From positions 1 through 64,000 of the forward strand of contig JACSRW010000020.1 in assembly GCA_014879565.1 (NCBI GenBank): 64,000 nucleotides of DNA. The letters run 5' to 3'. The position numbers and the translations under genes were made by a program. The DNA is from Chitinophagaceae bacterium. GTDB lineage: Bacteria; Bacteroidota; Bacteroidia; Chitinophagales; Chitinophagaceae. The notes under the pieces are model-generated. The model was not told where the DNA came from. It saw only the letters and a list, made by a program, of their open reading frames with translations, and searched no databases. This document shows, one piece after another, positions 8,516-28,412 of this stretch. The first letter of the stretch is position 1. Each line of letters opens with the position of its first letter.

Positions 8516-8581
8516 GCCCGCTCACACTGAAACAAAAACCACCGGCATTCCTCGTTTTTTCTTAACTGCTAAATATTATAT

Positions 8582-10588: not shown

Positions 10589-10600
10589 ACGATTCTTCCG

Positions 10601-10624: not shown

Positions 10625-10651
10625 CTTTACTGCCAATTCAAAACTCAGTTT

Positions 10652-11218: not shown

Positions 11219-11294
11219 CTCAACGCTGTTGCGTTTCTATTGTTCTTTACCGCTTCCGGGCTTCAACACCCGGAAGCTCTTTCAAATTTCGTAT

Positions 11295-11885: not shown

Positions 11886-12313
11886 GATTCCTGAACCTGC
11901 TGCTGATTGTTTCTTTTTTAACCGGGGCCTGCTCGGTGAAACCCGAACCCTTCAAATTCGGGAAAGATCTCTGCCATACCTGTAAGATGACCCTGATGGA
12001 TCCGAAATTCGGCGCCGAGGTGGTAACCAAAAAAGGCAGGATTTTTAAATTTGATGACCTGGTTTGCCTGAACCAGTATCTGCAGACAGAAAAAGAGGCG
12101 GAGCAAAATTTATCACACCTGCTGGTGATTGACTTTGAAAAAGGAGATGCATTTACTGATGCCCGGGAAGCCTGGTATGTTTTCTCAACGGAGATCAAAA
12201 GCCCGATGGCCGGCCATACAGCCGCTTTCAGTTCCAGAGAAACAGCTGAAAAATTCAGTGGTACAGTGAACGGCACCCTGAAACGCTGGGACGAAGTTTC
12301 CGGCAAAAAATAA
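11882..12313 (+). CDS. nosL: NosL copper chaperone lipoprotein
   Basis: 143-residue outer/periplasmic lipoprotein (lipobox TGAC) that delivers Cu(I) for CuZ assembly. It shows the NosL pattern: CHTCKMTLMDPKFGAEV near residues 34-50 (Cys and Met copper ligands) and FDDLVCLNQYL. It overlaps the preceding gene by 4 nt and is 5 nt from nosD. Confidence 0.92.
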   Translation: MRFLNLLLIVSFLTGACSVKPEPFKFGKDLCHTCKMTLMDPKFGAEVVTKKGRIFKFDDLVCLNQYLQTEKEAEQNLSHLLVIDFEKGDAFTDAREAWYVFSTEIKSPMAGHTAAFSSRETAEKFSGTVNGTLKRWDEVSGKK

Positions 12314-12318
12314 CACGG

Positions 12319-13551: not shown

Positions 13552-14321
13552 TCCGCATTGAAGAAATATCAAAAAAATTCCGGCGGCTGCAGGCGCTTGA
13601 TCATATCTCCGTCCGTTTTACGGAGGGGCAGGTCGTAGCGCTGATCGGCCCCAACGGTTCGGGCAAGACCACCCTGATCAAATCAGTGCTGGGCATGGTC
13701 AGGCCTGACAGCGGCCGCATCTTTGTAAAAGACCAGCCCGTCAGCGGTGATCCTTCTTACCGGGAACATATCGGGTATATGCCGCAGATCGGCCGTTACC
13801 CGGATAACATGAAAGTGGGCCAGCTATTTGATATGATGCAAAAGATCCGGAACCGGGAACATACCGATACCGATCTGCTGTATAAATTCAATATTCCGGC
13901 TATTTATGAAAAGCCCATGCGTACCCTCAGCGGGGGAACCCGGCAGAAGGTAAGCGCGGCCCTGGCTTTTTTATTTGATCCCTCCATCCTGATCCTGGAT
14001 GAACCCACTGCAGGACTGGATCCGCTTTCCACCGAAATCCTGAAAGAAAAGATCCAGAAAGAAAAGAAGAAGAACAAACTCATCCTGATTACCTCCCATG
14101 TGCTGAGTGACCTGGAGGAACTGACCACCCATATCATGTACCTGCAGGACGGCAAACTGCAGTTCTTTAAAGATTTTGAAACCCTGCAGGAAGAAACCGG
14201 TGAACTGCGGCTGAGCAAGGCCATTGCCAGGGTGATGCAGGGTTTTGAACCGGCCAGTGAATGGATTGACGAGTTGTTTGATGTACATCCGAAAGGGAAA
14301 CAACAAGACAAAAAGAAATAA
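13548..14321 (+). CDS. nosF: NosF ABC transporter ATPase
   Basis: 257 residues; Walker A IGPNGSGKTTLIKS (about 32-45), signature LSGGTRQKVSAAL, Walker B SILILDEPTAGLD, and switch His in LITSHVLSDLEE. It powers the NosDFY complex in CuZ maturation. It overlaps nosD by 4 nt and ends 1 nt before nosY. Confidence 0.95.
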   Translation: MIRIEEISKKFRRLQALDHISVRFTEGQVVALIGPNGSGKTTLIKSVLGMVRPDSGRIFVKDQPVSGDPSYREHIGYMPQIGRYPDNMKVGQLFDMMQKIRNREHTDTDLLYKFNIPAIYEKPMRTLSGGTRQKVSAALAFLFDPSILILDEPTAGLDPLSTEILKEKIQKEKKKNKLILITSHVLSDLEELTTHIMYLQDGKLQFFKDFETLQEETGELRLSKAIARVMQGFEPASEWIDELFDVHPKGKQQDKKK

Positions 14322-14322
14322 G

Positions 14323-15090
14323 ATGCTGAAACTCTCGCGTTACGTACTGTATGATATCCTGCGCAATAAAATTGTAATTGCCTACACCCTGTTCCTGCTG
14401 CTCGTATCTTTCAGCATGTTCCGGATGGAAGACAACAGCAGTAAGGCACAGCTCAGCCTGCTTACTATTGTCCTGATTGTACTGCCGCTGGTAAGCCTGG
14501 TTTTCACCACAATCCATTATTATAACTCGTACGAATTTATTGAGCTCATGCTTTCCCAGCCGCTGAGCCGTACAAAAATTCTGCTCAGCGAGTACGCAGG
14601 TGTATGCCTGTCGCTGCTTTCCGCGTTCTGGATCGGGGTGGGGGTACCGGTACTTCTTTTTTCTGCCGATGCCACCGGTTTCGCCCTGCTGTTTACCGGC
14701 TCGGCCCTCACCATCGTATTTACGAGTATCGCCTTTTACACTTCAGTACGGTCCAAGGACAAAGCCAGGGGGATCGGCTTCGCACTCCTGCTCTGGTTCT
14801 ATTTCGCCCTTATTTACGACGGGCTGGTCCTGCTGACACTTTATGCCTTCAGCGATTACCCGATGGAAAAATTCACCCTGCTTCTGTCCGCCCTGAACCC
14901 CATTGATCTGGGCCGGATATTTATTATGCTAAAAATGGATATCAGTGTCCTGATGGGTTACACCGGCGCGCTGTATAAGGACTTTTTCGGCAGCGGAACC
15001 GGGGTGCTTTTCACCACGGGCATCATGCTGCTCTGGGCCCTTATTCCTCTTTGGCTGGCCCTGCGCAGCTTCCGCCGCAAGGATATGTAA
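14323..15090 (+). CDS. nosY: NosY ABC transporter permease
   Basis: 255 residues with six predicted membrane segments (first at about 15-35 after the start MLKLSRYVLYDILRN), typical of the NosY/ABC-2 type permease. ATG 14323 is chosen over an upstream in-frame Met inside nosF because the family begins with this amphipathic stretch. Last gene of the nos operon; no strong terminator is seen after it, only an FNR-like box at 15116. Confidence 0.92.
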   Translation: MLKLSRYVLYDILRNKIVIAYTLFLLLVSFSMFRMEDNSSKAQLSLLTIVLIVLPLVSLVFTTIHYYNSYEFIELMLSQPLSRTKILLSEYAGVCLSLLSAFWIGVGVPVLLFSADATGFALLFTGSALTIVFTSIAFYTSVRSKDKARGIGFALLLWFYFALIYDGLVLLTLYAFSDYPMEKFTLLLSALNPIDLGRIFIMLKMDISVLMGYTGALYKDFFGSGTGVLFTTGIMLLWALIPLWLALRSFRRKDM

Positions 15091-15729: not shown

Positions 15730-16791
15730 TTAATACAGCAGGTGTTTCAGTTTCTCAATATTGCTGATACTGATCTTGCCGTCTTTTATCTCAATGAGTT
15801 TTTCTGATTTGAAATCACTCAGGGTCCGGATCAGGGATTCGGTGGCGGTACCCACATAATGGGCAATGTCTTCCCTGGAAATTTCAATGGGTTTGTTTTC
15901 CCCGCCGGAATTAAACTTGCCATGGATATCCACCAGGGCCTTGGCCACGCGTTTCCGGAGGGAGCTATAGGCCAGGCTCAGCAGGCGTTCCTCTTTTTCC
16001 TTGACATTCTGGGTGATTATCCGGATAAACTTGGAAGCCACAGAAATATTTCCTTCAATCATCTGCTGGAAATCTTCCCGGGGCACCTGTACGATTTCAG
16101 TATCTTCCAGCGCTACAGCCGAGTCATCATAGTTTTTTTCTTCGATCAGGGCCGGGTAACCCACAAAGTCGCCGTCGCTGTAGAGATCAGTGATATATTC
16201 CTTGCCGTCTTCATGCGTTTTGAAACCCTTTACTTTCCCTTTTACGATATAATACAGGAAGCGGGGTCTTTTGCCCTCCGCATAAATCACCTGTTTCTTG
16301 GTATACAGTTCTGAGTTGTAATTATCGGGATTGAACTGCAGCATACCGCTCTCCCGCAGGTCATTGGCCAGTTCGCTCAGTCCCTTTCCGCTGGCCCGGT
16401 AATTTTTCTGGAGGATATCATATTTTTTGAGCCGGGACTCAATGGCGTTCATCAGCTCAATTTCCTCAAAGGGTTTGGTGATATAGTCATCCGCGCCCAT
16501 TTCCATGCCTTTGCGCAGGTCACTTCTTTCCGCTTTGGCAGTCAGAAAAATCAGCGGAATGTTTTCTGTTTCCGGATTTTTACGGAGCAGGTGCAACACT
16601 CCGTATCCATCCAACTCGGGCATCATGATATCACATACAATCAGATCCGGTTTTCCCTGTAGGGCTGCTTCCACCCCCCTTTTCCCGTTTTCGGCAGTCA
16701 TGGTCTTATAGCCTCCCAGTGAGAGGATTTCTGCCGTATTTTCCCGGATATCTTCGTTATCGTCAATAATAAGGATCGTTCTTTGGGACAT
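15730..16791 (-). CDS. Response regulator fused to a Crp/Fnr-type DNA-binding module
   Basis: 353 residues from MSQRTILIIDD (a further ATG 13 codons upstream at 16830 is less likely). Domains in order: CheY receiver (1-120) with acidic pocket DD10-11, phosphoacceptor Asp54 in VCDIMMPELDG, Thr/Ser in FLTAKAERS and Lys105 in YITKPFEE; a cyclic-nucleotide-binding-type barrel (about 150-255); a Crp-family winged HTH (about 280-345) with recognition helix GTATESLIRTLSDFK. The Glu and Arg (E-S-L-I-R) sit where FNR/CRP use them to read TGA/TCA. It has none of FNR's cluster cysteines, so the signal must arrive by phosphorylation. It lies next to hsp20, ccoI and the cbb3 operon, behind an FNR-like box. 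Confidence 0.92.
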   Translation of the reverse strand: MSQRTILIIDDNEDIRENTAEILSLGGYKTMTAENGKRGVEAALQGKPDLIVCDIMMPELDGYGVLHLLRKNPETENIPLIFLTAKAERSDLRKGMEMGADDYITKPFEEIELMNAIESRLKKYDILQKNYRASGKGLSELANDLRESGMLQFNPDNYNSELYTKKQVIYAEGKRPRFLYYIVKGKVKGFKTHEDGKEYITDLYSDGDFVGYPALIEEKNYDDSAVALEDTEIVQVPREDFQQMIEGNISVASKFIRIITQNVKEKEERLLSLAYSSLRKRVAKALVDIHGKFNSGGENKPIEISREDIAHYVGTATESLIRTLSDFKSEKLIEIKDGKISISNIEKLKHLLY

Positions 16792-16817
16792 AGCGCGGTT
16801 TTTGGTTCTAAACGGCT

Positions 16818-16825
16818 GCAAAATA
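16818..16825 (-). promoter_or_regulatory. Candidate promoter of the Crp-type response regulator
   Basis: TATTTTGC on the minus strand, the same sequence as the ric -7 element, 22.5 nt from the FNR-like box centre at 16847.5. This is closer than the 29.5 nt seen elsewhere, so the box may repress instead of activate here. Confidence 0.4.
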
Positions 16826-16840
16826 GGCAAAACCGGGGTT

Positions 16841-16854
16841 TTGATGAAAATCAG
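16841..16854. promoter_or_regulatory. FNR-like box between the regulator gene and ccoI
   Basis: TTGATGAAAATCAG matches FNR's TTGATnnnnATCAA with one end base off. It sits 51.5 nt upstream of TAATTTAG (16899-16906), the likely ccoI -7 element. Confidence 0.65.
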
Positions 16855-16932
16855 TTTGCCGGGTGAATTTTCTCAGCCGCCCCCCCGGGAGGTCCCGATA
16901 ATTTAGCAACTTCAAAATTTTTTCACCCTTTC

Positions 16933-19329
16933 ATGTCTGCCACAGTACTCACTGACCAGGAAATCCATTGTTACCATTGCGGAGAACCCTGCCTGAACGA
17001 TAAAATCCGGGCGGAGGAAAAAATTTTCTGTTGTGAGGGATGTAAGATGGTGTATGGTATTCTGAACCAGAGTGAACTTTGTGATTATTATTCCCTGAAC
17101 GAAAATCCGGGGATCAACCAGCGGATCCGGGTGAGGCAGGATAAGTTCGCCTTCCTGGATGATGCCAAAATACAGGAAGAACTGATCAGTTTCCAGGATG
17201 ACAAACAGGTGCATATTACTTTTTACCTGCCCCAGATGCACTGCAGCTCCTGTCTTTACCTGTTGGAAAACCTGCACCGGCTGAACCCGGGGGTTGTTTC
17301 CAGTAAGGTAAACTTTACCCGGAAAGAAGCGGAAATCGTGTTCCTGAAAGAAAAAACCAGCTTGAGGCGGGTAGCCGAAACGCTCACCAGTATCGGGTAC
17401 GAACCCTATATCAGCCTGAATGATCTGAAGGAAAAAAGACCGGCTATTGACAAGAGCATGGTGTACCAGCTCGGGGTGGCGGGTTTCGCTTTCGGCAATA
17501 TCATGCTGATGAGTTTTCCCGAATACCTGGGTATTGACGCGAGCGAACGCGGTCTGCTGGAAATTTTCCGCTGGGCCAATTTTGCCCTGGCTATCCCCGT
17601 ATTATTGTATTCAGCCCTTCCCTTTTATATCTCCTCCTGGAAAAGCCTGAAACATAAATTCCTGAATATTGATGCCCCCATTGCACTGGCCATCATTATT
17701 ACTTTTATCCGCAGTGCCTGGGAAGTGCTGAGCGGAACCGGGGGCGGGTATTTTGATTCCATGACTGGCATTGTATTTTTTATGCTGGCCGGCCGTATTG
17801 TTCAGGATAAAACCTACCGGCAGCTTTCTTTTGAAAGAGATTATACTTCCTATTTCCCGATCGCGGTATCGGTACTGAAAAACGGACTGGAAACACCGAC
17901 CACCCTTCCCGAAATCAAACCCGGCGATACCCTGCTGATTCATAATGAAGAACTGATTCCTGCCGATGGTATACTGACCCGGGGCAAGGCCTTTATTGAC
18001 TATAGTTTTGTAACCGGCGAGTCTCTCCCGGTACAAAAAGAGATCGGGGAAATCGTGTATGCCGGTGGCAAACAGACGGAAGGTACCATTGAAATGCTGG
18101 TAGTAAAAGAGGTGACCCAAAGTTATTTGACCAAACTCTGGAACCGCGACGAATTCAAAGAAAAAGAGGAAATCAATACCCGTTCCTTTGTACACCTGCT
18201 CAGCCGGTATTTTACCTATATTGTTCTGACCCTGGCAACGGCTACTGCGATTTACTGGTATTTCAATGACCCCTCCCGGATCTGGCCGGCCGTAACGGCT
18301 ATTTTTATAATTGCCTGCCCCTGCGCCCTGTTTCTTTCGAATACTTTCACCAACGGCAATGTCCTCAGTATACTGGGCCGTAACCGGTTATATATGCGTA
18401 ATGCCCAGGCTATTGAAGATATGGCCCTGGCCACCCATATCGTATTTGATAAAACCGGCACCCTGACCTCTACCCGTGAACAGGATATCCGTTGGGAAGG
18501 ACTTGACCTGGATCCTGCCCGCCTGGAAATCATCGCCGCCCTGGCCGATCAGTCAAACCACCCGCTCAGTAAAGCGCTGGCCCGGCATATTGGCCGGAAA
18601 AGCAGCCTGCCCTTTACTTCCTTCCGGGAAATACCCGGACAAGGGATTGAAGGGGAAGCCGGAAATCAACAGTACCGGCTGGGGTCGGCCGTATTTGTAA
18701 CTGGTCATTCGCATGCGGCCCGGGGTACCTCCGTTTTTGTCCGGATCGGGGACCAGGTGTATGGTCATTTCCATTTCAGTAATCATTACCGGGAGTCTAT
18801 TCCGGAGCTGATCCGGGAACTGAAAAAAGATTTCCGGTTGTCGGTATTATCGGGGGATACGGCCGATGAACAGGATAACCTGATCCGGCTGATGGGGCGC
18901 AATACCAGCCTGCTTTTCCACCAGAAACCGGAAGACAAGCTGAATTATATCAAACAGCTCCAGGCGGAAGGCGGTAAAGTGATGATGATAGGAGACGGCT
19001 TGAATGATGCCGGAGCATTGAAACAGAGCGACATAGGCATAGCGGTGGCGGAACAAACCAATAATTTCACCCCCTCCAGCGATGCCATTATTGAAGCCAG
19101 ACAACTATCAAAACTGACCCGATTTATCCGGCTCTGCAAAGCCAACCGGAACATCATAGTGGCCAGTTTTGTCCTCTCAATCGTATATAATGTAATCGGG
19201 CTGTTTTTTGCTGTGCAGGGGACCCTGTCCCCCGTGATTGCTGCCATCCTCATGCCCAGCAGCTCTCTGAGTATCCTGTTGCTGACATTCGGAAGCAGCA
19301 GCCTGATTGCCAGGCGGTTGAAACTGTAA
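16933..19329 (+). CDS. ccoI: Copper-translocating P1B ATPase for cbb3 oxidase assembly (CcoI/FixI)
   Basis: 798 residues. The N-terminus carries a Cys-rich metal domain (HCYHCGEPC, FCCEGCKMVYGIL), then an HMA domain with MHCSSCLYLLENLHRL. The core has TGES, the CPC ion-binding motif (ACPCALFLSN, about 461), the phosphorylation site FDKTGTLT (Asp about 505), a His-Pro pair in QSNHPLSKAL and GDGLNDAGALKQSD. This arrangement and the next-door cco genes mark the CcoI/CopA2 type, which exports Cu for the binuclear centre, not for detoxification. Weak TAATTTAG promoter at 16899 with an FNR-like box 51.5 nt upstream. Confidence 0.93.
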   Translation: MSATVLTDQEIHCYHCGEPCLNDKIRAEEKIFCCEGCKMVYGILNQSELCDYYSLNENPGINQRIRVRQDKFAFLDDAKIQEELISFQDDKQVHITFYLPQMHCSSCLYLLENLHRLNPGVVSSKVNFTRKEAEIVFLKEKTSLRRVAETLTSIGYEPYISLNDLKEKRPAIDKSMVYQLGVAGFAFGNIMLMSFPEYLGIDASERGLLEIFRWANFALAIPVLLYSALPFYISSWKSLKHKFLNIDAPIALAIIITFIRSAWEVLSGTGGGYFDSMTGIVFFMLAGRIVQDKTYRQLSFERDYTSYFPIAVSVLKNGLETPTTLPEIKPGDTLLIHNEELIPADGILTRGKAFIDYSFVTGESLPVQKEIGEIVYAGGKQTEGTIEMLVVKEVTQSYLTKLWNRDEFKEKEEINTRSFVHLLSRYFTYIVLTLATATAIYWYFNDPSRIWPAVTAIFIIACPCALFLSNTFTNGNVLSILGRNRLYMRNAQAIEDMALATHIVFDKTGTLTSTREQDIRWEGLDLDPARLEIIAALADQSNHPLSKALARHIGRKSSLPFTSFREIPGQGIEGEAGNQQYRLGSAVFVTGHSHAARGTSVFVRIGDQVYGHFHFSNHYRESIPELIRELKKDFRLSVLSGDTADEQDNLIRLMGRNTSLLFHQKPEDKLNYIKQLQAEGGKVMMIGDGLNDAGALKQSDIGIAVAEQTNNFTPSSDAIIEARQLSKLTRFIRLCKANRNIIVASFVLSIVYNVIGLFFAVQGTLSPVIAAILMPSSSLSILLLTFGSSSLIARRLKL

Positions 19330-19360
19330 ATACCTCTTACTCCTGTATCGTTCGGTTATG

Positions 19361-19374
19361 CTGATTAAAATCAG
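19361..19374. promoter_or_regulatory. FNR-like box of the cco operon
   Basis: CTGATTAAAATCAG: perfectly inverted 5-bp half-sites. Its centre is 52.5 nt before TACTTTCG (19420-19427), the probable -7 element of the ccoS-ccoNO operon. Confidence 0.7.
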
Positions 19375-19419
19375 TTAACCCCTTGATAGTGGTTACCCCT
19401 TGCTCTTAAGGTGAAAAAA

Positions 19420-19427
19420 TACTTTCG
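19420..19427 (+). promoter_or_regulatory. cco operon promoter (TACTTTCG)
   Basis: One mismatch from TAnnTTTG. The predicted start is near 19432, giving a leader of about 15 nt before ccoS. Confidence 0.5.
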
Positions 19428-19446
19428 CCCCTAATTGAACCCAACC

Positions 19447-19608
19447 ATGAGTGTAATTATCATCTTGTTGATAGCCAGTATTTCAATAGCCGCCCTTTTC
19501 CTGGGCGCCTTTTTATGGGGCGTGAAAACAGGCCAGTTTGAAGACGACTTTTCCCCCTCTTCCAGGATTCTCTTCGAAGACAAACCCTCCTCAACCAAAA
19601 CCGTATAA
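19447..19608 (+). CDS. ccoS: cbb3 oxidase assembly protein CcoS
   Basis: 53 residues. One N-terminal transmembrane helix (about 3-25, MSVIIILLIASISIAALFLG), then KTGQFEDDFSPSSRILFED, the typical CcoS layout (W-x-x-x-x-GQFDD). Needed for cofactor insertion into CcoN. It lies just ahead of ccoNO in the same operon. Confidence 0.9.
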   Translation: MSVIIILLIASISIAALFLGAFLWGVKTGQFEDDFSPSSRILFEDKPSSTKTV

Positions 19609-19629
19609 CACAATAAAACAACCCAGTTT

Positions 19630-21756
19630 ATGCAAGTAGAAAAGTTCTATTATGACAACAAAATTGTAAAGGCATTTGGTATTGCCACAATTGTATTTGG
19701 CATAGTAGGGATGCTGGCGGGATTATGGGCTGCGATCCAGATTTATTATCCGGCGATCAGTCTGAATCTTCCGGCAACGACATTTGGTCGTCTCCGTCCC
19801 CTGCATACCAATGCGATCATTTTTGCCTTTGTGGGCAACTCCATCTTTACGGGAGTTTACTATTCCCTGCAAAGACTCTGTAAAGCCCGCATGTTCAGCG
19901 ACAAACTTTCCTGGCTCCATTTCTGGGGCTGGCAGGCCATTATTGCCGCGGCTGCCATTACCCTGCTGATGGGGGTAACCACCGGAAAAGAATATGCCGA
20001 GCTGGAATGGCCGATTGATATCGCCATTACCCTGATCTGGGTTGTTTTTGGTATCAATATGTTTGGTACCATCCTCAAAAGAAGGGAGCGTCACCTTTAC
20101 GTGGCTATCTGGTTCTATATCGCCACCTGGGTAACGGTTGCCATGCTGCATATTGTGAACTCCGTGGAAATCCCGGTAACCTTCCTGAAAAGTTACAGCT
20201 GGTACGCCGGTGTTCAGGATGCCCTGGTACAATGGTGGTACGGGCACAATGCCGTAGCCTTCTTCCTGACTACTCCCGTACTGGGTCTGATGTATTATTT
20301 CCTGCCTAAGGCAGCGAACCGCCCCGTATATTCCTATCGTCTTTCCATTATTCACTTCTGGGCGCTGATCTTTATTTATATCTGGGCCGGTCCGCACCAC
20401 CTGCTGTACACTGCCCTGCCCGACTGGGCACAGTCACTGGGTACAGTATTTTCTGTAATGCTGATTGCCCCGAGCTGGGGAGGGATGCTGAACGGTCTGT
20501 TTACTCTGCGCGGCGCCTGGGATAAGGTACGTGAAGAACCGGTACTGAAATTTATGGTGGTGGCTATTACCTGTTACGGGATGTCCACTTTTGAAGGTCC
20601 GATGCTCAGTCTGAAAAACGTAAATGCTATTTCCCACTTTACCGACTGGACCATTGCCCACGTGCATATCGGCGGTCTGGGCTGGAATGGATTCCTGGCA
20701 TTCGCCATTATCTATTACCTGCTGCCCAAAATGTGGAACACACAGTTGTACTCTAAAAAACTTGCCACCAACCACTTCTGGCTGGGCACTATAGGTATCA
20801 TCCTCTATGCGGTGCCGATGTACTGGGCCGGTTTTGAACAGGCTTCCATGTGGAAACAGTTTACCGCTGAAGGACAACTGAAATTCCAGTTCCTGGAAAC
20901 GGTAACCAATATTATTCCGATGTATGTGGCCCGGAGTGTGGGTGGTCTGCTTTACCTGACCGGCGCCCTGATGATGGTGTATAACGTCTATAAAACCGTT
21001 AAACAGGGAAGCTTTATCGCAGAAGAAGCCGCGGAAGCGCCTGCCCTGGTTAAAGAAGCCCCGCATAAGGAATACTGGCACCGGGTACTGGAGCGCAAGC
21101 CCGTTACCATGCTGGTACTGAGCCTGATCCTGGTTTCCATCGGTGGCCTGGTACAGATGATCCCCACCTTCCTGGTGAAATCAAATGTACCCACCATTGC
21201 GAGTGTGAAGCCGTATACTCCGCTGGAGCTGCAGGGCCGGGATCTCTATGTTAAAGAAGGTTGTTACACCTGCCACTCCCAGATGATCCGTCCGTTCCGG
21301 GATGAAGTGGCCCGGTATGGCGAATACTCCAAAGCCGGCGAATTCGTATATGATCACCCCTTCCAGTGGGGCAGTAAACGTACCGGACCGGATCTGGCCC
21401 GTATCGGCGGCAAATACCCCGACAGCTGGCATTACAACCATATGTATGACCCCCGTTCCATGTCACCCGGTTCGGTAATGCCGCCCTATCCCTGGCTGCT
21501 CGACAAAGCCATTGATACCAGCAATACTGCCGCTAAAATCCGGGCCATGCAAACCCTGGGTGTTCCCTATCCGGAAGGTTATGATCAGCAGGCTAACCGC
21601 GATCTGATGAAACAGGCTGAAACAATTGCCGCCAACCTGAAAAAGGATAAGATAGAGACAGCACCCAATGCCCAGATTGTAGCCCTGATCGCTTACCTGC
21701 AGCGGGTAGGTACCGACATCAAACTGGAACCGAAACCTCTTGCTGAAAATAAATAA
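19630..21756 (+). CDS. ccoNO: cbb3-type cytochrome c oxidase, fused subunits I and II (CcoN-CcoO)
   Basis: High-affinity terminal oxidase. The 708 residues hold CcoN (1-480, 12 membrane helices with haem and CuB histidines such as LRPLHTNAIIFA, WWYGHNAVAFFLT, GPHHLLYT and AHVHIGGLGWNGF) and, after a loop, CcoO (about 490-708) with one membrane anchor and a c haem GCYTCHSQMIRPF (about 545-556). Axial Met candidates lie in SPGSVMPPYPWL. The fusion is normal for Bacteroidota. It supports respiration at low O2, in keeping with the FNR-like box. Confidence 0.96.
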   Translation: MQVEKFYYDNKIVKAFGIATIVFGIVGMLAGLWAAIQIYYPAISLNLPATTFGRLRPLHTNAIIFAFVGNSIFTGVYYSLQRLCKARMFSDKLSWLHFWGWQAIIAAAAITLLMGVTTGKEYAELEWPIDIAITLIWVVFGINMFGTILKRRERHLYVAIWFYIATWVTVAMLHIVNSVEIPVTFLKSYSWYAGVQDALVQWWYGHNAVAFFLTTPVLGLMYYFLPKAANRPVYSYRLSIIHFWALIFIYIWAGPHHLLYTALPDWAQSLGTVFSVMLIAPSWGGMLNGLFTLRGAWDKVREEPVLKFMVVAITCYGMSTFEGPMLSLKNVNAISHFTDWTIAHVHIGGLGWNGFLAFAIIYYLLPKMWNTQLYSKKLATNHFWLGTIGIILYAVPMYWAGFEQASMWKQFTAEGQLKFQFLETVTNIIPMYVARSVGGLLYLTGALMMVYNVYKTVKQGSFIAEEAAEAPALVKEAPHKEYWHRVLERKPVTMLVLSLILVSIGGLVQMIPTFLVKSNVPTIASVKPYTPLELQGRDLYVKEGCYTCHSQMIRPFRDEVARYGEYSKAGEFVYDHPFQWGSKRTGPDLARIGGKYPDSWHYNHMYDPRSMSPGSVMPPYPWLLDKAIDTSNTAAKIRAMQTLGVPYPEGYDQQANRDLMKQAETIAANLKKDKIETAPNAQIVALIAYLQRVGTDIKLEPKPLAENK

Positions 21757-21767
21757 AGGAAACCTGT

Positions 21768-21932
21768 ATGAAATTCATCAATTACCTGGAGAAAGTCAGC
21801 GGAGTGGACATTTTCGGACTTACGTCCCTCATCCTGTTTTTCCTCTTCTTCTCCATCATGGTCATCTGGGTGTTTAAAACCAAAAAGAAAAGCTTCCAGG
21901 AGATCAGCCGGATTCCTTTAGACAACAATTAA
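21768..21932 (+). CDS. ccoQ: Small cbb3 oxidase subunit CcoQ-like
   Basis: 54 residues: a short amphipathic start, one membrane helix (about 15-37, GLTSLILFFLFFSIMVIWVF), and a basic cytoplasmic tail KTKKKSFQEISRIPLDNN. Position between ccoNO and ccoP and topology match CcoQ/FixQ, which stabilises the complex. Sequence identity in this family is low, so the name rests on context. Confidence 0.8.
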   Translation: MKFINYLEKVSGVDIFGLTSLILFFLFFSIMVIWVFKTKKKSFQEISRIPLDNN

Positions 21933-21945
21933 TACTTTACCTGTA

Positions 21946-23109
21946 ATGTCATTCTATATGCGTACAAAAACAAAATATACCCTGGGGCTGCTGGCAGCCC
22001 TGCTTCTCGGCGCCGCAACGCCTGTTTGGGCTGCAGGCCCCCCGGCCCCTTCTATTTTCAGCAATCCGCTGGCGCTGACCTTCATTATCCTGATGGTACT
22101 GCTGCTGGTAATTATCGGCATCCTGGCCAATATCCTGATTGGCGCAGCGGATGTAAAACTGAAAAAAAGGAAAAAAGCTTCCGGGCTGCTGGCCTCTGTA
22201 CTCACCGGCCTCCTGCTGCTGGCTTCACCGGCCCTTTTTGCGCAGGATGCGCCTGCAGCGGCTGAGGCGACGAATACGGCTGCCAAAACCATTGCCGGTA
22301 TGTCTGCTTCAACTTTCTACATCCTGGCTACCGTGATCTTCCTGGAACTGTTTATTATTATCGCCCTGCTGATCAATATTAAGTTCCTGCTCCGTAATGA
22401 GAAAGATAAAATTGCGGCAGAAACAGAAACAGCTGAAGAAAAAGCCAATAAACTCAGCTGGTGGGATCGTTTCAACGCCCTTCGGCCGGTTACGGAAGAA
22501 GCTTCGCTGGACCTGGGTCATGATTATGATGGTATCCGCGAACTGAATAACCGGCTTCCCGGATGGTGGCTCTATGGATTTTATTTCTGTATCGCTTTTG
22601 CCGGGGTGTATATGTGGCGTTATCACGTGTCACACACTGCCCCGCTCAGTGCACAGGAATACGAACGCTCCGTGGTGAAAGCCGACCTGGCACTGAAAGA
22701 ATACCTGAAATCAAAAGGTGAGGCGGTGGATGAAAATACCGTCAAAATGATGACCGGGGCGGATGATCTGGCTGCCGGGAAAGCCATCTTTGTGAAATCC
22801 TGTGCCGCCTGCCACCTGGAAACCGGTGCCGGCAGTGTGGGGCCGAACCTCACAGATGATTACTGGCTGCATGGAAATGACATGAAGAGTATCTTCAAGA
22901 CGATCCGCTATGGTATCAATGCCATGCCGCCCTGGCAATCCTCCCTTAACAATAAACAGATTGCCCAGGTTTCCAGTTATATTAAAACCCTGCACGGCAC
23001 CAACCCTCCCAATCAGAAACCCCCGCAGGGTAACCTGATGAAGGAAGAAGCCGCCCCCGCCGCACCCGCTGCCGATACGGCCCAGGCCAAGCCGGTAGCC
23101 AAAAACTAA
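21946..23109 (+). CDS. ccoP: cbb3 oxidase subunit III, monohaem CcoP
   Basis: 387 residues. Three hydrophobic segments near the N-terminus (about 12-30, 42-66, 80-100), another at 125-146, then the WWLYGFYFCIAFAGVYMWRY helix before the periplasmic domain. That domain has one c haem, CAACHLETGAGSVGPNLT (about 285), and Met in AMPPW. Proteobacterial CcoP has two haems; Bacteroidota often have one. The C-terminus is a low-complexity Ala/Pro tail. The start may be ATG 21958 instead. It passes electrons into CcoO. Confidence 0.93.
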   Translation: MSFYMRTKTKYTLGLLAALLLGAATPVWAAGPPAPSIFSNPLALTFIILMVLLLVIIGILANILIGAADVKLKKRKKASGLLASVLTGLLLLASPALFAQDAPAAAEATNTAAKTIAGMSASTFYILATVIFLELFIIIALLINIKFLLRNEKDKIAAETETAEEKANKLSWWDRFNALRPVTEEASLDLGHDYDGIRELNNRLPGWWLYGFYFCIAFAGVYMWRYHVSHTAPLSAQEYERSVVKADLALKEYLKSKGEAVDENTVKMMTGADDLAAGKAIFVKSCAACHLETGAGSVGPNLTDDYWLHGNDMKSIFKTIRYGINAMPPWQSSLNNKQIAQVSSYIKTLHGTNPPNQKPPQGNLMKEEAAPAAPAADTAQAKPVAKN

Positions 23110-23136
23110 AAAAGTTCTTTATCCAGTAAAGTGTGA

Positions 23137-24564
23137 ATGATGTCCCAGCCTACCCAACCCGAGGAAAATGTACAGGAATCCTTCCGTGACCGTATCGCCA
23201 CGGTGGACCAGAAAGGCAAAAGAAACTGGGTTTTCGCCCATAAGCCTAAAGGAAAATTCTACAATATCCGGACCTGGGTAAGCTGGGGCTTCTTCGCCTT
23301 GTTTTTTACCCTGCCGTTTCTGAAATCAAATGGCAGGCCTCTCTTTCTTTTTAATGTCCCGGAAGCCAAGTTCATCATCTTCGGAAAAGTGTTCTGGCCC
23401 CAGGACTTTTTTATTTTCGGCCTGACGATGGTGACCTTCATCATCTTCATTGTGCTGTTTACCGCCGCTTTCGGCCGGCTGTTCTGCGGCTGGGTTTGCC
23501 CCCAGACCATTTTTATGGAAATGCTGTTCCGTAAAGTGGAGTTCCTGATTGAAGGCAATGGCCCCAAACAGAAACTGCTCAAAAACGGTCCCTGGACCAC
23601 AGAAAAGATCTGGAAAAAAAGCCTGAAACACGGGGTCTTTTTCCTGCTCTCTTTTATCATTGCCAACTTTTTCCTTTCCTATATTATCGGGGTTGACGAA
23701 CTGAAAAAAATTATTACCGAACCGGTCAGCCAGCATGTCGTTGGTTTCTTTGCGATCGTACTGTTCAGTGCCGTCTTCTATGCGGTTTACGCCTTCTTCC
23801 GGGAACAGGCCTGTACCGTGGTTTGTCCCTATGGACGCCTGCAAAGTGTGCTGCTTGACCGTAACTCCATGATCGTGGCCTATGATTATAAACGCGGCGA
23901 ACCCAGAGGTAAATACAAGAAAGGCCAGACAGCCGATAACAGCCTGGGAGATTGCATAGACTGCCACCAGTGCGTACATGTTTGTCCCACCGGTATTGAT
24001 ATCCGGAATGGTACCCAGATGGAATGTGTGGGCTGCACAGCCTGTATTGATGCCTGCGACAAGATGATGGATGCCGTAGGCCGTCCCCGCGGTCTGGTAC
24101 GGTACGCTTCCGAAAACGGGATCGCGGAAGGCCAGAAACTGAATTACACCACACGGATGAAGCTGTATACCTTCCTGCTGTTTGTACTCACCGGGCTGCT
24201 GACGGTATTGCTGCTTACCCGGAAAGATGTAGGGGGTACTATTGTAAGGGCCGGAGGTATACTGTACCAGGAAAGGGGCGCCGACAGCATCTCCAACCTG
24301 TATACCATCAAACTGACCAACAAGACCATGAAGGATATCAATCTGACACTGAAACTGGAAGGGGCCCCGGGCCAGATCATCCAGGCAACAGGTGAACAGA
24401 TCCTGGTGAAAAAAGAAGACCAGGGCCGTGGGTCCTTCTTTATTGTGCTTCCCCGGAACTATATCAGCAAACGGAAGATCAGTTTGCGGGTAGGCTTGTA
24501 TGAAGGAGACAAAAAAATTACCACCTTAAAGACTAACTTTATGGGGCCGTTCAGCCGTCTCTGA
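23137..24564 (+). CDS. ccoG: CcoG/RdxA/FixG ferredoxin-type membrane protein
   Basis: 475 residues; reduces Cu(II) for cbb3 assembly. Membrane helices at about 45-65, 88-112, 165-185, 205-225 and 340-360. CGWVCPQTIFMEM lies on the second helix, and two [4Fe-4S] motifs occur in CIDCHQCVHVCP and CVGCTACIDACD. The C-terminal Ig-like FixG domain (about 370-475) ends in FMGPFSRL. Six nt separate its stop from the ccoH frame. Confidence 0.95.
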   Translation: MMSQPTQPEENVQESFRDRIATVDQKGKRNWVFAHKPKGKFYNIRTWVSWGFFALFFTLPFLKSNGRPLFLFNVPEAKFIIFGKVFWPQDFFIFGLTMVTFIIFIVLFTAAFGRLFCGWVCPQTIFMEMLFRKVEFLIEGNGPKQKLLKNGPWTTEKIWKKSLKHGVFFLLSFIIANFFLSYIIGVDELKKIITEPVSQHVVGFFAIVLFSAVFYAVYAFFREQACTVVCPYGRLQSVLLDRNSMIVAYDYKRGEPRGKYKKGQTADNSLGDCIDCHQCVHVCPTGIDIRNGTQMECVGCTACIDACDKMMDAVGRPRGLVRYASENGIAEGQKLNYTTRMKLYTFLLFVLTGLLTVLLLTRKDVGGTIVRAGGILYQERGADSISNLYTIKLTNKTMKDINLTLKLEGAPGQIIQATGEQILVKKEDQGRGSFFIVLPRNYISKRKISLRVGLYEGDKKITTLKTNFMGPFSRL

Positions 24565-24593
24565 CGGTATTGCTGAACAAAAACCTGTACTAC

Positions 24594-25031
24594 ATGAATT
24601 GGGGGAATCGTCTTTTACTGGTCTTTATTGTGTTTGGAGCGGGTATGTTTTACCTGGTTTACCGTTCGGTGAATACTGACTTTGAAATGGTGGAAAAGGA
24701 CTATTACAAACAGGAACTTCGTTATCAGCAGGTAATAAACGACCATGAGGAGGCAAATAAACTTTCTTCCTCCATTCAATTCAGCCAGCAGGAAGCGCTG
24801 CTCCGTATGCAACTCCCGGAGGAAATGAAAAACAAATCCCTGACGGGCGAAGTGTATTTCTATTGCGCGTATGATTCTAAAAAAGACAAACGTTTTGAAC
24901 TGAAAACCGACAGCCTGGCCATACAGCAGTTCCTGACCTCGGTGGTTACTCCCGGCACTTACACCGTAAAGGTGAAATGGAAAGACGGCGACCAGTCCTA
25001 TTATTCCGAAAAAACAATTTCCGTTTTATAA
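24594..25031 (+). CDS. ccoH: FixH/CcoH-family protein
   Basis: 145 residues from ATG 24594 (MNWGNRLLLVFIVFGAGMFY, the usual FixH start; a TTG at 24570 would add eight residues). One N-terminal membrane helix, then a periplasmic beta-rich FixH domain with KDYYKQELRYQQVINDH and a C-terminal Ig-like strand pair (GTYTVKVKWKDGDQSYYSEK). Required for CcoN/CcoI function. It lies 2 nt from the next gene. Confidence 0.9.
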   Translation: MNWGNRLLLVFIVFGAGMFYLVYRSVNTDFEMVEKDYYKQELRYQQVINDHEEANKLSSSIQFSQQEALLRMQLPEEMKNKSLTGEVYFYCAYDSKKDKRFELKTDSLAIQQFLTSVVTPGTYTVKVKWKDGDQSYYSEKTISVL

Positions 25032-25033
25032 TC

Positions 25034-25750
25034 ATGCTCTGGGCTGCCCTGATATCCGGCCTGACCCTGGGTGCGGCGGGAAGCCTGCACTGCGTGGGAA
25101 TGTGCGGCCCCCTGGCCCTGGCATTGCCCACTGCACACCTGACAAAAGGGAGCCAGTTTATATCCCTCCTGGCTTATAATGCAGGCAGGGTGGTTACCTA
25201 CAGCATATTGGGGATGGTGTTTGGCCTGGCCGGCCGCCGGATATATATCAGCGGATACCAGCAATGGTTTTCTATCGCTATGGGGGTACTGGTACTGGGA
25301 CTGGCTGCTCTTTATTATTTGCGTAAAACCAGTATCCGGATCGGCTTATTTGACCGGTTTTATTTCCGTTTACAGCAACTGATCGGACAAATAATCCGGA
25401 AAAAAAGAGGGGTACCGGGTTTTTTCAGCCTGGGACTGGCCAATGGTCTGCTTCCCTGCGGCCTGGTGTATGTGGCCATTGCCGCTACATTATCATTTTC
25501 TGAAATCGGGGAAAGTGTGGCTTTTATGGCCGCCTTCGGAGCAGGCACCCTGCCGGCCATGATGCTGGTGGGTATGGCAGGAAAGATGATCGGACCCGAA
25601 GCCCGGCAATCACTGCGGAAAGCGGTTCCGGTATTTGTCACCCTGATGGGCATTGTGCTGATTCTTCGCGGTTTGAACCTTGGCATTCCATATCTCAGCC
25701 CTGCATTACCCGTAAATCCGGGAGATGCCGTGATCTGCCACCCGGAATAA
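25034..25750 (+). CDS. Sulfite exporter TauE/SafE-family membrane protein of the cco operon
   Basis: 238 residues with about six membrane helices. It has the conserved start GSLHCVGMCGPLALALP and the internal repeat-like NGLLPCGLVYVAIAATL. Such proteins close the fixGHIS operon in Bacteroidota and are thought to handle copper or haem export for oxidase assembly; the substrate is not known. ATG 25034 follows ccoH by 2 nt. The stop lies 1 nt from the converging kinase gene. Confidence 0.87.
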   Translation: MLWAALISGLTLGAAGSLHCVGMCGPLALALPTAHLTKGSQFISLLAYNAGRVVTYSILGMVFGLAGRRIYISGYQQWFSIAMGVLVLGLAALYYLRKTSIRIGLFDRFYFRLQQLIGQIIRKKRGVPGFFSLGLANGLLPCGLVYVAIAATLSFSEIGESVAFMAAFGAGTLPAMMLVGMAGKMIGPEARQSLRKAVPVFVTLMGIVLILRGLNLGIPYLSPALPVNPGDAVICHPE

Positions 25751-25751
25751 A

Positions 25752-27314
25752 TTAATCTTCTTTGTATTCAGGAAGCTCCACCGTAACCTCTGTACCCTCT
25801 TCCAGTTCACTTTTCAGATGAATTTCGCCACCCAGCAGGTTTACATACCGTTTTACAATAGGCAAACCCAGACCGGTTCCCTGTATATTGCTCACATTTT
25901 TGGCCCGGTAAAACGTACTGAACAGGTGCGGCAGATCTTCCTCCGGTATACCCAGCCCTTCATCCCGTACACGGATAAAAAGCTGATCGGCTCGGGTAAT
26001 TGTCTGTATCCAGACCCTTTTTCCCTCACCGGAAAATTTAATGGCGTTGGACAGAATATTCAGGATGATATTTTTCAGCATCCTTTTGTCCGTGATGAAC
26101 TGTGCATCGCCGGTACACTCCGGGAGTATTTCCTGTCCATTCTTCAGCATGGCCTTCATTTCGTCCACCACATCTTCAATAAAGTCCCTGACAGAAAACC
26201 GGGTGATGGTCACCCCCACTTTTCCTTCCTCGAGTTTTCCGAGTGACAGGAAGTCTTCCAGCAATTCGTTAAGATGATTTACGGAATCCTTGATCCGCCG
26301 TATATGTTTTTCCCTTTTCTCAAAATCCTCCGTTTGCGGATATTTGGAAACCAGGGTAGCCGAGGAGAGAATAGTACTGAGCGGAGTCCGGAACTCATGG
26401 GAAGCCATGGACACAAAACGGCTTTTAATTTCGTTCAGTTGTTTTTCTTTATCCAGGGATTCACTGAGTTCGGTCTGTGACTGTTCCAGTTTTTGCAGGG
26501 CTTCCTTTAAAATAAGCGTACGTTCCTCCACCTTCCCCTCCAGGTCGGCATTCAGTTTCCGGATATCATCGCTGATTTTTTCCAGTTCCATTTTCTGGCG
26601 GAGCAGGTTTTTTTCTATCTCTTTCCGGGCGGTGATATCCACGATAAAGGCAATGACAAAAGGCTCATTCCGCTGGAAATAATGACTCAGGCTCACTTCC
26701 ACCGGAAACTCACTGCCGTCTTTCCTCCGGGCATAAAGATCGCGGCCCGTACCCATCGTACGGTTTCCCGGATTATGATAATACCCTTCCCGCAAGCCCT
26801 CATGCCTGTTCAGAAAACGCATCGGAATCAGTTTTTCCACTTTCTCCTCCACCAGGTCCAGCGCATCATACCCAAACATCCGCTCAGCCGCCGGATTGAC
26901 CAGTACTATTTTGCCGGACCGGTCGGTCAGAATAATCCCCTCCGTTGCATTCTCAAAGAGAGAAGCCATATGCGTTTTTTCATAGGCGAAATTCTGCTGC
27001 ATTTTTTTCAGGTAAAAAATGACAATCACAGAAAAAACAACTACAAAAAGAGAATATATCTGGGACAGCAGGGCGCGCGTGATGTTATGATTTTCGTCCC
27101 GGAAATAAATGACCAGCGCGGTCATAACGATCATACTGCTCAGTCCGGCCAGCAGGGTGGAACGCCAGCCCGGTATAAAAGCGGTGAGAATGATGAACAG
27201 GAGAAGCCCGCTGACGGCCAGCTGGTAATCCCTGAACATAAAGGCCAGGACCAGGGAAAAACTGAAAACGAGAATAGCCCAGAAAGTCATTAAGCCGCTG
27301 TTCGAACGATCCAT
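25752..27314 (-). CDS. PAS sensor histidine kinase with FixL-like PAS signature
   Basis: 520 residues. Three to four membrane helices (about 10-27, 32-48, 53-70, 84-102), PAS domain (about 115-232), coiled coil (235-295), HisKA with phospho-acceptor His306 in SMASHEFRTPLS, and HATPase_c with NILSNAIKFS, DEGLGIPEED and GTGLGLPIVKRYV. The PAS domain has His171 (NRHEGL) and Arg191 (GTGRDLYARRKDG). In B. japonicum FixL the haem ligand His200 and the O2-sensing Arg220 have the same 20-residue spacing, though many PAS domains of untested ligand share this motif. No partner regulator adjoins it; the receiver-Crp fusion 9 kb away is the nearest candidate. Confidence 0.93.
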   Translation of the reverse strand: MDRSNSGLMTFWAILVFSFSLVLAFMFRDYQLAVSGLLLFIILTAFIPGWRSTLLAGLSSMIVMTALVIYFRDENHNITRALLSQIYSLFVVVFSVIVIFYLKKMQQNFAYEKTHMASLFENATEGIILTDRSGKIVLVNPAAERMFGYDALDLVEEKVEKLIPMRFLNRHEGLREGYYHNPGNRTMGTGRDLYARRKDGSEFPVEVSLSHYFQRNEPFVIAFIVDITARKEIEKNLLRQKMELEKISDDIRKLNADLEGKVEERTLILKEALQKLEQSQTELSESLDKEKQLNEIKSRFVSMASHEFRTPLSTILSSATLVSKYPQTEDFEKREKHIRRIKDSVNHLNELLEDFLSLGKLEEGKVGVTITRFSVRDFIEDVVDEMKAMLKNGQEILPECTGDAQFITDKRMLKNIILNILSNAIKFSGEGKRVWIQTITRADQLFIRVRDEGLGIPEEDLPHLFSTFYRAKNVSNIQGTGLGLPIVKRYVNLLGGEIHLKSELEEGTEVTVELPEYKED

Positions 27315-27370: not shown

Positions 27371-28126
27371 TCAGGGGCGCGCCAGTAATTCTTTTTCCAT
27401 CGCGATTGCTTTGGGGAAAAGCACTTCATTCTCCAGGAAAATATGCTGCACCAGGTCCTGATCCAGTTCTTTCAGTAAAGAAAAAGCGAGCCGGTGACTG
27501 GTACAGGCGTTTTCAGGCGCTGTATAATAATGGGTCAGCTCCCTGACACGGATCAGCAGTTTTTCTATGGTTTCATGTTCCTCATGCATCAGGGCTTCCA
27601 CCGGTTTCCGGAGGGTCCGGACCAGCAGGGTGGCATAGGCTTCCTGGCTTTCATAGGCATGGCTGATCTGGCGGATGTAGGGAAATATCACATTTTCTTC
27701 CTGCATCAGGTGCGGAATCATGGTTTTTCCCAGGAACTGTAAATGCTGGCTCAGTTCCTCCAGTTCGGGATATTTCTTCCGGTGTTCCTCCACAAAGCGG
27801 GCAACCTGTTCCAGCAAGGGGTTCAAAGACCTGCGCAAATACTCATGATGAATATTAATAATGTAATCAATCAGGAAATCAACCGACCAGGTCTGATAAG
27901 GCAGGCCAGCCGGTGTAATCAGTACCCGGCAGGCTTCTTCCAGTTCTTTCATCAGTTTTGGACCATCGAGCTTCTTTTCCTCCACTACCATCTTCAGCGG
28001 CCAGCGGCCTCCGCAGCAATACTCAATATCATATTTGCGGAATACCCTGGCTGTCCTGTAATAAGCCCGGACAATGTCGGCGGCACAGGCATTTTCATTT
28101 ATCAGTACTGAAGGGCTCATGTTCAT
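27371..28126 (-). CDS. ric: Iron-sulfur cluster repair di-iron protein (Ric/ScdA/YtfE)
   Basis: 251 residues from ATG 28126 (or 28120, MSPSVLIN). The N-terminal DUF542 contains NACAADIVRAYYRTARVF and EYCCGG (ScdA_N Cys pair). The C-terminal hemerythrin-like domain has di-iron ligands in IINIHHEYLRR, FVEEHRKKYPE, HLMQEENVIFPY, MHEEHETIEK and QHIFLENEVLFPKA. It repairs Fe-S clusters damaged by NO or oxidants and releases NO. Promoter TATTTTGC (28142-28149) with an FNR-like box centred 29.5 nt upstream. The longer frame to 28189 runs through that box and is rejected. Confidence 0.93.
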   Translation of the reverse strand: MNMSPSVLINENACAADIVRAYYRTARVFRKYDIEYCCGGRWPLKMVVEEKKLDGPKLMKELEEACRVLITPAGLPYQTWSVDFLIDYIINIHHEYLRRSLNPLLEQVARFVEEHRKKYPELEELSQHLQFLGKTMIPHLMQEENVIFPYIRQISHAYESQEAYATLLVRTLRKPVEALMHEEHETIEKLLIRVRELTHYYTAPENACTSHRLAFSLLKELDQDLVQHIFLENEVLFPKAIAMEKELLARP

Positions 28127-28141
28127 TTTTGCGTATCGCGG

Positions 28142-28149
28142 GCAAAATA
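28142..28149 (-). promoter_or_regulatory. ric promoter -7 element (TATTTTGC)
   Basis: Minus-strand TATTTTGC; the predicted start near 28137 leaves a leader of 11-17 nt. Confidence 0.55.
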
Positions 28150-28171
28150 ATATTCTGCCCGGCCGCAAAAA

Positions 28172-28185
28172 CTGATTTAAATCAC
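28172..28185. promoter_or_regulatory. FNR-like box of ric
   Basis: CTGATTTAAATCAC, inverted half-sites TGAT/ATCA, centre 28178.5, exactly 29.5 nt from the T of the ric -7 element. Confidence 0.7.
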
Positions 28186-28269
28186 CCAAAATATCCGGGG
28201 AAAACCATGAAACGGAAATGGACCATAAAAATCGTTAAAAAACAGGGCTGACACATATCAATGACCGGG

Positions 28270-28283
28270 CTGACCAAGGTCAC
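28270..28283. promoter_or_regulatory. FNR-like box of the small-RNA promoter
   Basis: CTGACCAAGGTCAC, a perfect TGACC/GGTCA inverted repeat. Its centre 28276.5 is 29.5 nt before the T of TACTTTTG (28306-28313). Confidence 0.6.
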
Positions 28284-28305: not shown

Positions 28306-28313
28306 TACTTTTG
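28306..28313 (+). promoter_or_regulatory. Promoter TACTTTTG of the candidate small RNA
   Basis: Perfect TAnnTTTG with no coding sequence close behind it; the predicted start is near 28318. Confidence 0.55.
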
Positions 28314-28317
28314 ATCC

Positions 28318-28412
28318 AGAGGTGAAAAAATACACTTAAAATGTGGCTCATGAAAATGAGCTATCGTTGGTTTTTGTTTCAATGTCAACCCCCGGTTCCC
28401 CGGGGGTTTCTC
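28318..28412 (+). ncRNA. Candidate FNR-type-box-controlled small RNA, about 95 nt
   Basis: It starts 5 nt after a perfect TAnnTTTG and ends at a strong terminator. From 5' to 3' it has an A-rich leader, a hairpin GCTCAT-GAAA-ATGAGC (28346-28361, GNRA loop, extendable by three pairs including G-U), a U-rich single-stranded linker (GTTGGTTTTTGTTTC), and the terminator hairpin AACCCCCGG-TTCC-CCGGGGGTT (28387-28408) followed by TTCTCTTT. The layout of activator box, promoter, short hairpin, unpaired linker and terminator resembles FNR-induced regulatory RNAs such as E. coli FnrS, without sequence similarity being claimed. A weaker alternative is a short peptide from ATG 28341, whose frame runs through the terminator. 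Confidence 0.5.

Follow-up and report, generated by a model that had tools for sequence, protein, structure and literature searches.

We analysed a 64,000-nucleotide stretch of a Chitinophagaceae genome (positions 1 to 64,000 of contig JACSRW010000020.1, assembly GCA_014879565.1; hereafter, the window) in which a cbb3 (cco) gene cluster on the plus strand lies between two genes on the minus strand, one for a sensor histidine kinase and one for a regulator that joins a receiver to a Crp/Fnr-type DNA-binding module; nos genes lie past the regulator. We propose, with a probability of about 0.68, that the two proteins form a two-component switch for low oxygen whose response regulator doubles as an FNR-type activator and takes the place of a free-standing iron-sulphur (Fe-S) FNR. 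The membrane-anchored kinase would bind haem through His171 of its PAS domain, and oxygen on the haem would keep the kinase off. A drop in oxygen would lead to phosphorylation of His306 and, given the partnership indicated by gene order, to phosphotransfer from there to the regulator's Asp54. The phosphorylated receiver would then place two Crp-type dimers side by side on a twin operator, a site recognised by its statistics. The bound dimers, near -41 and -63, would themselves activate ccoI, ccoNO, nos and a small RNA, with no FixK in between. The regulator would replace, on the same operator, the free-standing Fe-S FNR found near cco in relatives.

The kinase, the regulator and their partnership

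Both reading frames named in a preliminary description of the window are present, on the minus strand. The kinase (P0002) carries PAS (PAS_9, E = 1e-14), HisKA and HATPase_c domains in one chain, which is the domain order of FixL, and its N-terminal ~100 residues are hydrophobic and read by eye as a membrane anchor. The PAS domain has His171 (in NRHEGL) and Arg191 (in GTGRDL) 20 residues apart, as that description had pointed out, and aligns to FixL without gaps (phmmer, E = 3.9e-16). The six best matches among PDB sequences are FixL, followed by 10jx (FG214, a haem-binding PAS according to its title), a further FixL entry and EcDOS/DosP. We modelled the PAS domain with AlphaFold (predicted local distance difference test score, pLDDT, 88) and found that Foldseek matches 1–24 in the PDB were all haem-PAS domains (FixL, EcDOS/DosP, FG214), with non-haem PAS and LOV domains ranking after them; the template modelling (TM) score to FixL was 0.83 at 24% identity. 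In FixL, His200 is the proximal residue of the haem pocket and Arg220 the distal one, while Arg206 and His214 bind the propionates, according to the available part of the source (PMC10765370). The window kinase has both the proximal His, as His171, and the distal Arg, as Arg191. Neither propionate-binding residue is kept, and we therefore call the kinase FixL-like rather than FixL; His214 corresponds to Arg185, an Arg kept in 103 of 108 family kinases, and Arg206 is taken up below.

We followed these residues through a survey of 147 family genomes, in which a genome was regulator-positive at E ≤ 1e-50, cco was called at E ≤ 1e-100 and a full kinase at E ≤ 1e-60 with a match starting at query residue 120 or earlier. 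A second set, the named loci, comprises the best 80; the two sets overlap and are not independent of each other. In an alignment of 108 full kinases, from which one partial row and 32 rows covering only the kinase core were left out, His171 is kept in 107 and the catalytic His306 in all 108. Position 191 is Arg in 67, Met in 26, Leu in 6 and another residue in 9. For the named loci, 59 kinases were scored after 9 of 68 loci had been left out for weak PAS alignment; 57 keep the His (the other two have gaps), and the distal residue is Arg in 31, Met in 12, Leu in 8 and another in 8. Among membrane-anchored kinases within 15 kb of cco, the distal Arg is present in 17 of 19. Because the PAS domain is closest to haem-PAS domains of FixL and DosP in both sequence and fold, and because His171 is near-invariant, a haem pocket in the kinase is likely. 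Twenty of the 32 core-only rows adjoin a receiver-Crp gene; 19 were inspected by eye, 15 having the His motif and 4 lacking it (one of them cut by a contig end). We also observed that a distal Met is commoner in kinases without a membrane region (20 of 60) than in those with one (6 of 48).

The regulator (P0001) consists of a receiver (residues 6–118), a cyclic nucleotide monophosphate (cNMP)-binding domain (163–247) and an HTH_Crp_2 domain (280–351), consistent with the preliminary description of a receiver, a cNMP barrel and a Crp/Fnr helix-turn-helix (HTH) in one chain without Fe-S cysteines. Its sole cysteine, Cys53, lies inside the receiver, and the cluster cysteines of FNR are absent. 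The receiver residues Asp11, Asp54, Thr84 and Lys106 are identical in all 50 receiver-Crp rows aligned, the window's own included. The recognition helix, GTATESLIR, contains the Glu and Arg with which FNR-type helices read TGA; this pair, also claimed in that description, is present in 50 of 50 receiver-Crp rows. By eye, the Arg of the cyclic AMP phosphate cassette is not at its place. We found no NarL/LuxR HTH of the FixJ type in the regulator, which has HTH_Crp_2 instead. A whole-regulator AlphaFold model (pLDDT 75, predicted TM score 0.44) was used for a Crp/FNR fold match only. Among the best 80, the closest titled relatives come from Chitinophagales and Bacteroidota metagenome-assembled genomes (97% and 96% identity), and more distant ones from Flavihumibacter, Terrimonas, Niastella, Chitinophaga, Segetibacter and Sediminibacterium. 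At E ≤ 1e-60, this type of regulator occurs in 43 of 296 genomes across the phylum, in nine families; receiver-Crp architectures as such occur in genome annotations.

The kinase and the regulator are genetic partners, since a same-strand match to such a kinase lies no more than 300 bp from 103 of 147 receiver-Crp genes (83 full kinases and 20 core-only). These 147 rows come from 108 of the 147 genomes, and 109 full kinase rows were found in 98 genomes. At the named loci, the kinase is adjacent in 58, split from the regulator by ~9 kb as in the window in 10, and missing from the same strand of the locus in 12. The cco genes lie between kinase and regulator in 15 genomes, including the window's own; two of these have the regulator on the strand opposite the kinase, and one has a distance of 13.8 kb rather than ~9 kb. 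The layout of the window is compatible with a split operon; the pairing itself does not depend on a position beside cco.

A rigid twin operator with a promoter element

The window contains 27 TGANNNNNNTCA boxes, compared with 15.4 (standard deviation 3.5) in shuffled sequences, and none of 100 shuffles reached 27. Enrichment of such TGA/TCA boxes agrees with the preliminary description, which had not stated their exact pairing: the operator is a twin, TGAN6TCA-N10-TGAN6TCA, with boxes exactly 22 bp apart (Table 1). Several of the 27 single boxes lie inside genes and may be due to chance, and the one at 21769 coincides with the start of a ccoQ-like frame. The canonical FNR box, TTGANNNNNNTCAA, was dropped as a candidate because it is not enriched (0 versus 1.7 expected; with one mismatch, 20 versus 34 expected). 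The ric-type gene has one box upstream and we found no twin there, which makes ric the less secure target; cco, nos and the small RNA, also proposed earlier, do have the twin operator before them.

The same arrangement recurs in the genome and in relatives. The genome has 13 exact twins, compared with 0 for a reversed control, and when the spacer was allowed to vary from 0 to 30 there were 28 matches, of which 13 had a spacer of 10. Twelve of the 13 twins are intergenic, the remaining one overlapping the mechanical start of a frame. Exact twins with a 22-bp distance number 26, 22 and 25 in three sets of cco loci, whereas other distances average 0.12, 0.30 and 0.21. In the same sets, permuted palindromes yielded no exact twin, and with one mismatch allowed they yielded 0–5, compared with 34–35 for the true box. 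Across the 147 genomes we counted 776 twins versus 19 in controls. Twin density was 1.48 per Mb in genomes with a receiver-Crp protein (n = 108; no twin in three of them) and 0.37 in those without (n = 39), a difference with P = 4e-11 in a rank test that treats as independent genomes that are not.

Twins are followed at a fixed distance by TAnnTTTG, the Bacteroidota -7 consensus. The element starts 23 bp past the downstream box at nos, at ccoI (one mismatch) and at the small RNA, and 24 bp past it at ccoN (one mismatch), placing its first T 29.5 bp from the centre of that box, or 30.5 bp at ccoN; in each of ten simulated windows, at most one such site appeared. At the nos twin, TAGCTTTG is found equally far out on the minus side, facing the Rrf2 gene. 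With up to one mismatch and an offset of 22–25, the element accompanies 43 of 45 twins at 36 cco loci with receiver-Crp (control windows, 0–6), 18 of 26 at 20 cco loci with FNR (0–5) and 9 of 13 in the window's own genome (0–2), and it stands at this offset at 88 of 98 twins in the best 80 loci. If transcription starts a few bases past the element, the boxes would be centred near -41 and -63; about -41 and -63 are usual activator positions.

Neighbours of the genome twins include nos, ccoI, and genes for a NiFe-hydrogenase small subunit and HypB/CobW-type, Hsp90-type and OmpA-type proteins; which neighbour each twin controls is certain only in part. One twin (C16:15564-15597 of genome G000) lies between the NiFe-hydrogenase small subunit and HypB/CobW-type genes, which suggests that an uptake hydrogenase belongs to the regulon. 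Twins at six of the loci lie before genes for PLD-like, OmpA-type, DUF4907/Kelch and several unassigned proteins, possibly further low-oxygen functions. At three loci in relatives, a twin and a -7 element precede a frame that by eye is Rrf2-like, hinting at a layered circuit for oxygen and nitric oxide (NO).

Relation to FNR and alternative readings

We next compared the regulators encoded near cco, taking as cysteine-FNR the 37 matches listed with at least 48% identity, a cut of our choosing; cysteine-FNR counts refer to the matches listed. Within 15 kb of cco, 42 of 100 cco genomes have a receiver-Crp gene, 22 a cysteine-FNR gene, one the kinase alone and 35 none of these (contig ends included). 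Among the matches listed, no genome has both regulators within this distance, whereas 9.2 would be expected (P = 8e-7 on the assumption of independent genomes, which does not hold). Eight of 11 inspected genomes that lack receiver-Crp and have several twins encode a free-standing Crp protein a few kb from ccoNO, and a ccoI-like ATPase is present in all 20 FNR loci inspected. Cysteines at the equivalents of positions 10, 13, 59 and 112 are present in 20 of 20 cco-linked FNRs, with two further cysteines in 14 and 16 of them. In the 50 receiver-Crp rows, the first two of the four columns are gapped, and each of the others has a Cys in only 2 rows. The helix pattern A/S-T-E-S/T-x-I-R is common to FNR and receiver-Crp proteins (with Thr replaced by Lys or Ser in 6 of 50 receiver-Crp rows), and most of 18 other Crp proteins differ from it. 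A tree built from the Crp halves of 88 proteins unites the 50 receiver-Crp rows in a single group (88/97), next to the FNRs. This tree used 18 of 23 candidates that are neither FNR nor receiver proteins; of the five left out, three did not look like Crp proteins and two did or might.

The regulator thus looks like an FNR whose Fe-S sensor gave way to a receiver and a haem-type kinase with the operator unchanged. The preliminary description had interpreted the pair as a FixL-FixJ-FixK cascade collapsed into two proteins. Its FixL-like kinase, agreeing in sequence and fold, its one-chain receiver-Crp regulator and the coupling of the two genes stand. The collapse of FixJ and FixK as a history was dropped. 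An FNR with its sensor exchanged fits better because the regulator has no NarL/LuxR HTH, because its Crp half groups beside the cco-linked cysteine-FNRs (in a tree without FixK), and because the two share most of the recognition helix and their loci the twin operator. A broader proposal, whose chances we consider evenly balanced, is that the cbb3 and denitrification regulon of Bacteroidota is run on one rigid twin operator by either Fe-S FNR or a receiver-FNR commanded by a haem-PAS kinase, with Arg, Met or Leu at the distal site tuning the gas or the oxygen level sensed and an FNR-type small RNA in the regulon.

Several observations weigh against a simple version of this switch. Position 177 of the window kinase, the equivalent of the propionate-binding Arg206 of FixL, is Gly, and Arg is found there in only 7 of 108 family kinases; as the oxygen-contacting Arg is also replaced in 41 of 108, not all members need be oxygen sensors. 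Two further large kinases of this genome have one PAS-like stretch with the His motif, and the remaining alignable stretches lack it. Genomes with only FNR (17) have 0.66 twins per Mb, compared with 1.46 in those with only receiver-Crp (89 genomes), 1.57 with both (19) and 0.16 with neither (22). A twin is consequently no proof of receiver-Crp as such, and we rejected the idea that it is a private site of that protein, since FNR-only loci carry it too. Among the matches listed, 19 of 147 genomes hold both cysteine-FNR and receiver-Crp. A strict in-place swap of the two was also rejected, because strands and sides differ: relative to ccoNO, cysteine-FNR is a same-strand upstream gene in 21 of 22 cases, whereas for receiver-Crp 27 of 42 are upstream but on the opposite strand, 5 share the strand and are upstream, and 10 are downstream. 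The tree support of 88/97 is moderate, the FNR rows do not form one clean group, the root is a midpoint root and long rows blur the exact join. Moreover, cco is not the regulator's only task: at the threshold used, a cco match is missing from 24 of the 108 genomes that encode the regulator, and just 42 of the 147 receiver-Crp rows are found within 15 kb of cco. A strict tie of the pair to cco was rejected on the first of these counts.

The same circuit might sense something other than oxygen, the PAS haem responding to NO, carbon monoxide (CO) or redox state, or another cofactor taking its place; the kinase would answer respiratory state, and cco and nos would follow. The Met and Leu residues at the distal position of 26 and 6 of the 108 kinases would suit such a role, Met at this position being known in haem-PAS proteins with other ligands, as would the loss of Arg206 and the adjoining nos and ric-type genes; however, the window kinase has the FixL Arg, as do nearly all membrane-anchored kinases close to cco, and its nearest folds are mostly oxygen sensors, making this version rather unlikely. 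We consider it quite improbable that the PAS motif is a common subfamily signature without haem, with the kinase answering a small-molecule or protein signal and lying near cco through ordinary two-component clustering. A multi-PAS kinase of the same genome does have the same His in one PAS domain, but His171 is near-invariant while several neighbouring positions vary, the distal position favours Arg or Met, and FixL and DosP outrank non-haem PAS domains in sequence and fold. Finally, the twins might be bound by another Crp/Fnr protein while receiver-Crp controls something else. Two more such proteins score above the Pfam cut-off in the genome (C6:2901 and C32:77097), but their helices read REVVTR and REVISR rather than TESLIR and both stand apart from the FNR/receiver-Crp group in the tree. 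Twins are also ~50 times denser round the named receiver-Crp genes (98 in 1.31 Mb, best 80) than genome-wide (1.48 per Mb), and across the 147 genomes they track the presence of receiver-Crp or cysteine-FNR, all of which makes another binder very improbable.

The low-oxygen switch that we favour shares features with several known systems. Like FixL of Sinorhizobium meliloti and Bradyrhizobium japonicum, the kinase has a PAS domain with a proximal His and a distal Arg 20 residues later, HisKA and HATPase domains, an ungapped PAS alignment and cbb3 genes as putative targets, and it has a putative membrane anchor like that of S. meliloti FixL, as described in the available part of the source. It differs in lacking Arg206, in a partner that is not FixJ, in the Met and Leu residues at the distal site within its family and in its Bacteroidota host. 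As in the FixJ-FixK cascade, the signal is predicted to reach a Crp/Fnr-type protein that activates cco and denitrification genes; unlike there, receiver and Crp module are one chain without a NarL/LuxR HTH, the Crp half goes with FNR of the same family (in the tree without FixK) and the operator is a 22-bp twin. With the cco-linked FNRs of Bacteroidota relatives, the regulator has in common the operator, the promoter spacing and the greater part of the recognition helix; the cluster cysteines of those proteins and of E. coli FNR are gone, a receiver stands instead and a kinase would be needed. The haem-PAS fold is also that of DosP/EcDOS, the second-best match; the output of DosP is a cyclic di-GMP phosphodiesterase, not a kinase. 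In the hFixL-FxkR-FixK system of Rhizobium leguminosarum, a FixL-type sensor feeds a Crp-type activator of fixNOQP and coexists with FnrN, some strains having only one of the two, according to the available part of the paper (PMC7888657). In that system, FxkR is a separate protein that induces fixK, and there is no receiver-Crp fusion.

In the open-access literature, which was partially covered, we found no FixL-type sensor from Bacteroidota, no receiver-Crp regulator of cbb3 genes and no 22-bp twin operator. The available parts of two surveys of signalling proteins contained no Crp/cNMP output of response regulators. Taken together, these negatives argue only weakly for absence. Within the reach of the searches, each module is known; what is new is their assembly, its role in place of FNR and the rigid promoter with its twin boxes. 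If correct, the proposal would give Bacteroidota a complete, testable oxygen switch and would show a one-component Fe-S regulator becoming a two-component regulator with its operators unchanged. It would also supply a promoter grammar, twin box plus -7 element, with which to predict low-oxygen and N2O-reduction regulons, including nosZ, in the phylum.

Neighbouring genes and a predicted small RNA

Table 1. Genes, operators and the predicted small RNA in the window
Feature	Position	Strand	Remarks
Regulator P0001, 353 aa	15730-16791	minus	Receiver (Asp54), cNMP-type barrel, Crp/Fnr HTH; Fe-S cysteines absent
Sensor histidine kinase P0002, 520 aa	25752-27314	minus	FixL-like PAS (His171/Arg191), HisKA His306, HATPase
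Twin, exact	16842-16875	plus	-7-like TAATTTAG at 16899-16906; between regulator and ccoI-type ATPase (divergent)
Twin, one mismatch	19362-19395	plus	TACTTTCG at 19420-19427; before ccoS-like frame and ccoNO
Twin, exact	7902-7935	plus	TACATTTG at 7959-7966; before cytochrome c/nosZ
Twin, exact	28249-28282	plus	TACTTTTG at 28306-28313; before small RNA
Single box TGATTTAAATCA	28173-28184	minus	Upstream of ric-type gene
Copper-type P-ATPase	16933-19329	plus	ccoI/FixI, named from position only; putative target
ccoN-ccoO fusion	19630-21756	plus	Putative target
ccoP, ccoG, FixH-type, DsbD_2-type genes	21946-25750	plus	Putative target cluster
nos cluster	8045-15090	plus	Cytochrome c, nosZ, fasciclin, unassigned frame, nosL, nosD, ABC ATPase, permease; putative target
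RIC-type di-iron protein gene	27371-28189		186 bits, under NCBIfam cut-off of 205
Rrf2-family regulator gene	7404-7847		Beside nos
Small RNA, predicted	28317-28412	plus	Start placed from -7 element; ends in G+C hairpin and T run

The match to ccoP also scores under the NCBIfam cut-off. Two small frames, at 19447-19608 and 21768-21933, look by eye like ccoS and ccoQ, respectively; they fall outside the list of open reading frames longer than 100 aa.

No plus-strand frame of 100 aa starts between the predicted small RNA and position 28453. No Rfam family scored above its gathering threshold for the small RNA (best E = 0.011, 23.3 bits versus a gathering score of 50); in its logic, it resembles E. 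coli FnrS. Similar DNA occurs in 9 other of the 147 family genomes, six with E ≤ 1.5e-7 and three with E values from 1e-4 to 7e-4 that match the terminator side only. Of the three nearest cases examined (G019, G091 and G051), G019 and G091 have a twin and a -7 element ahead of this DNA.

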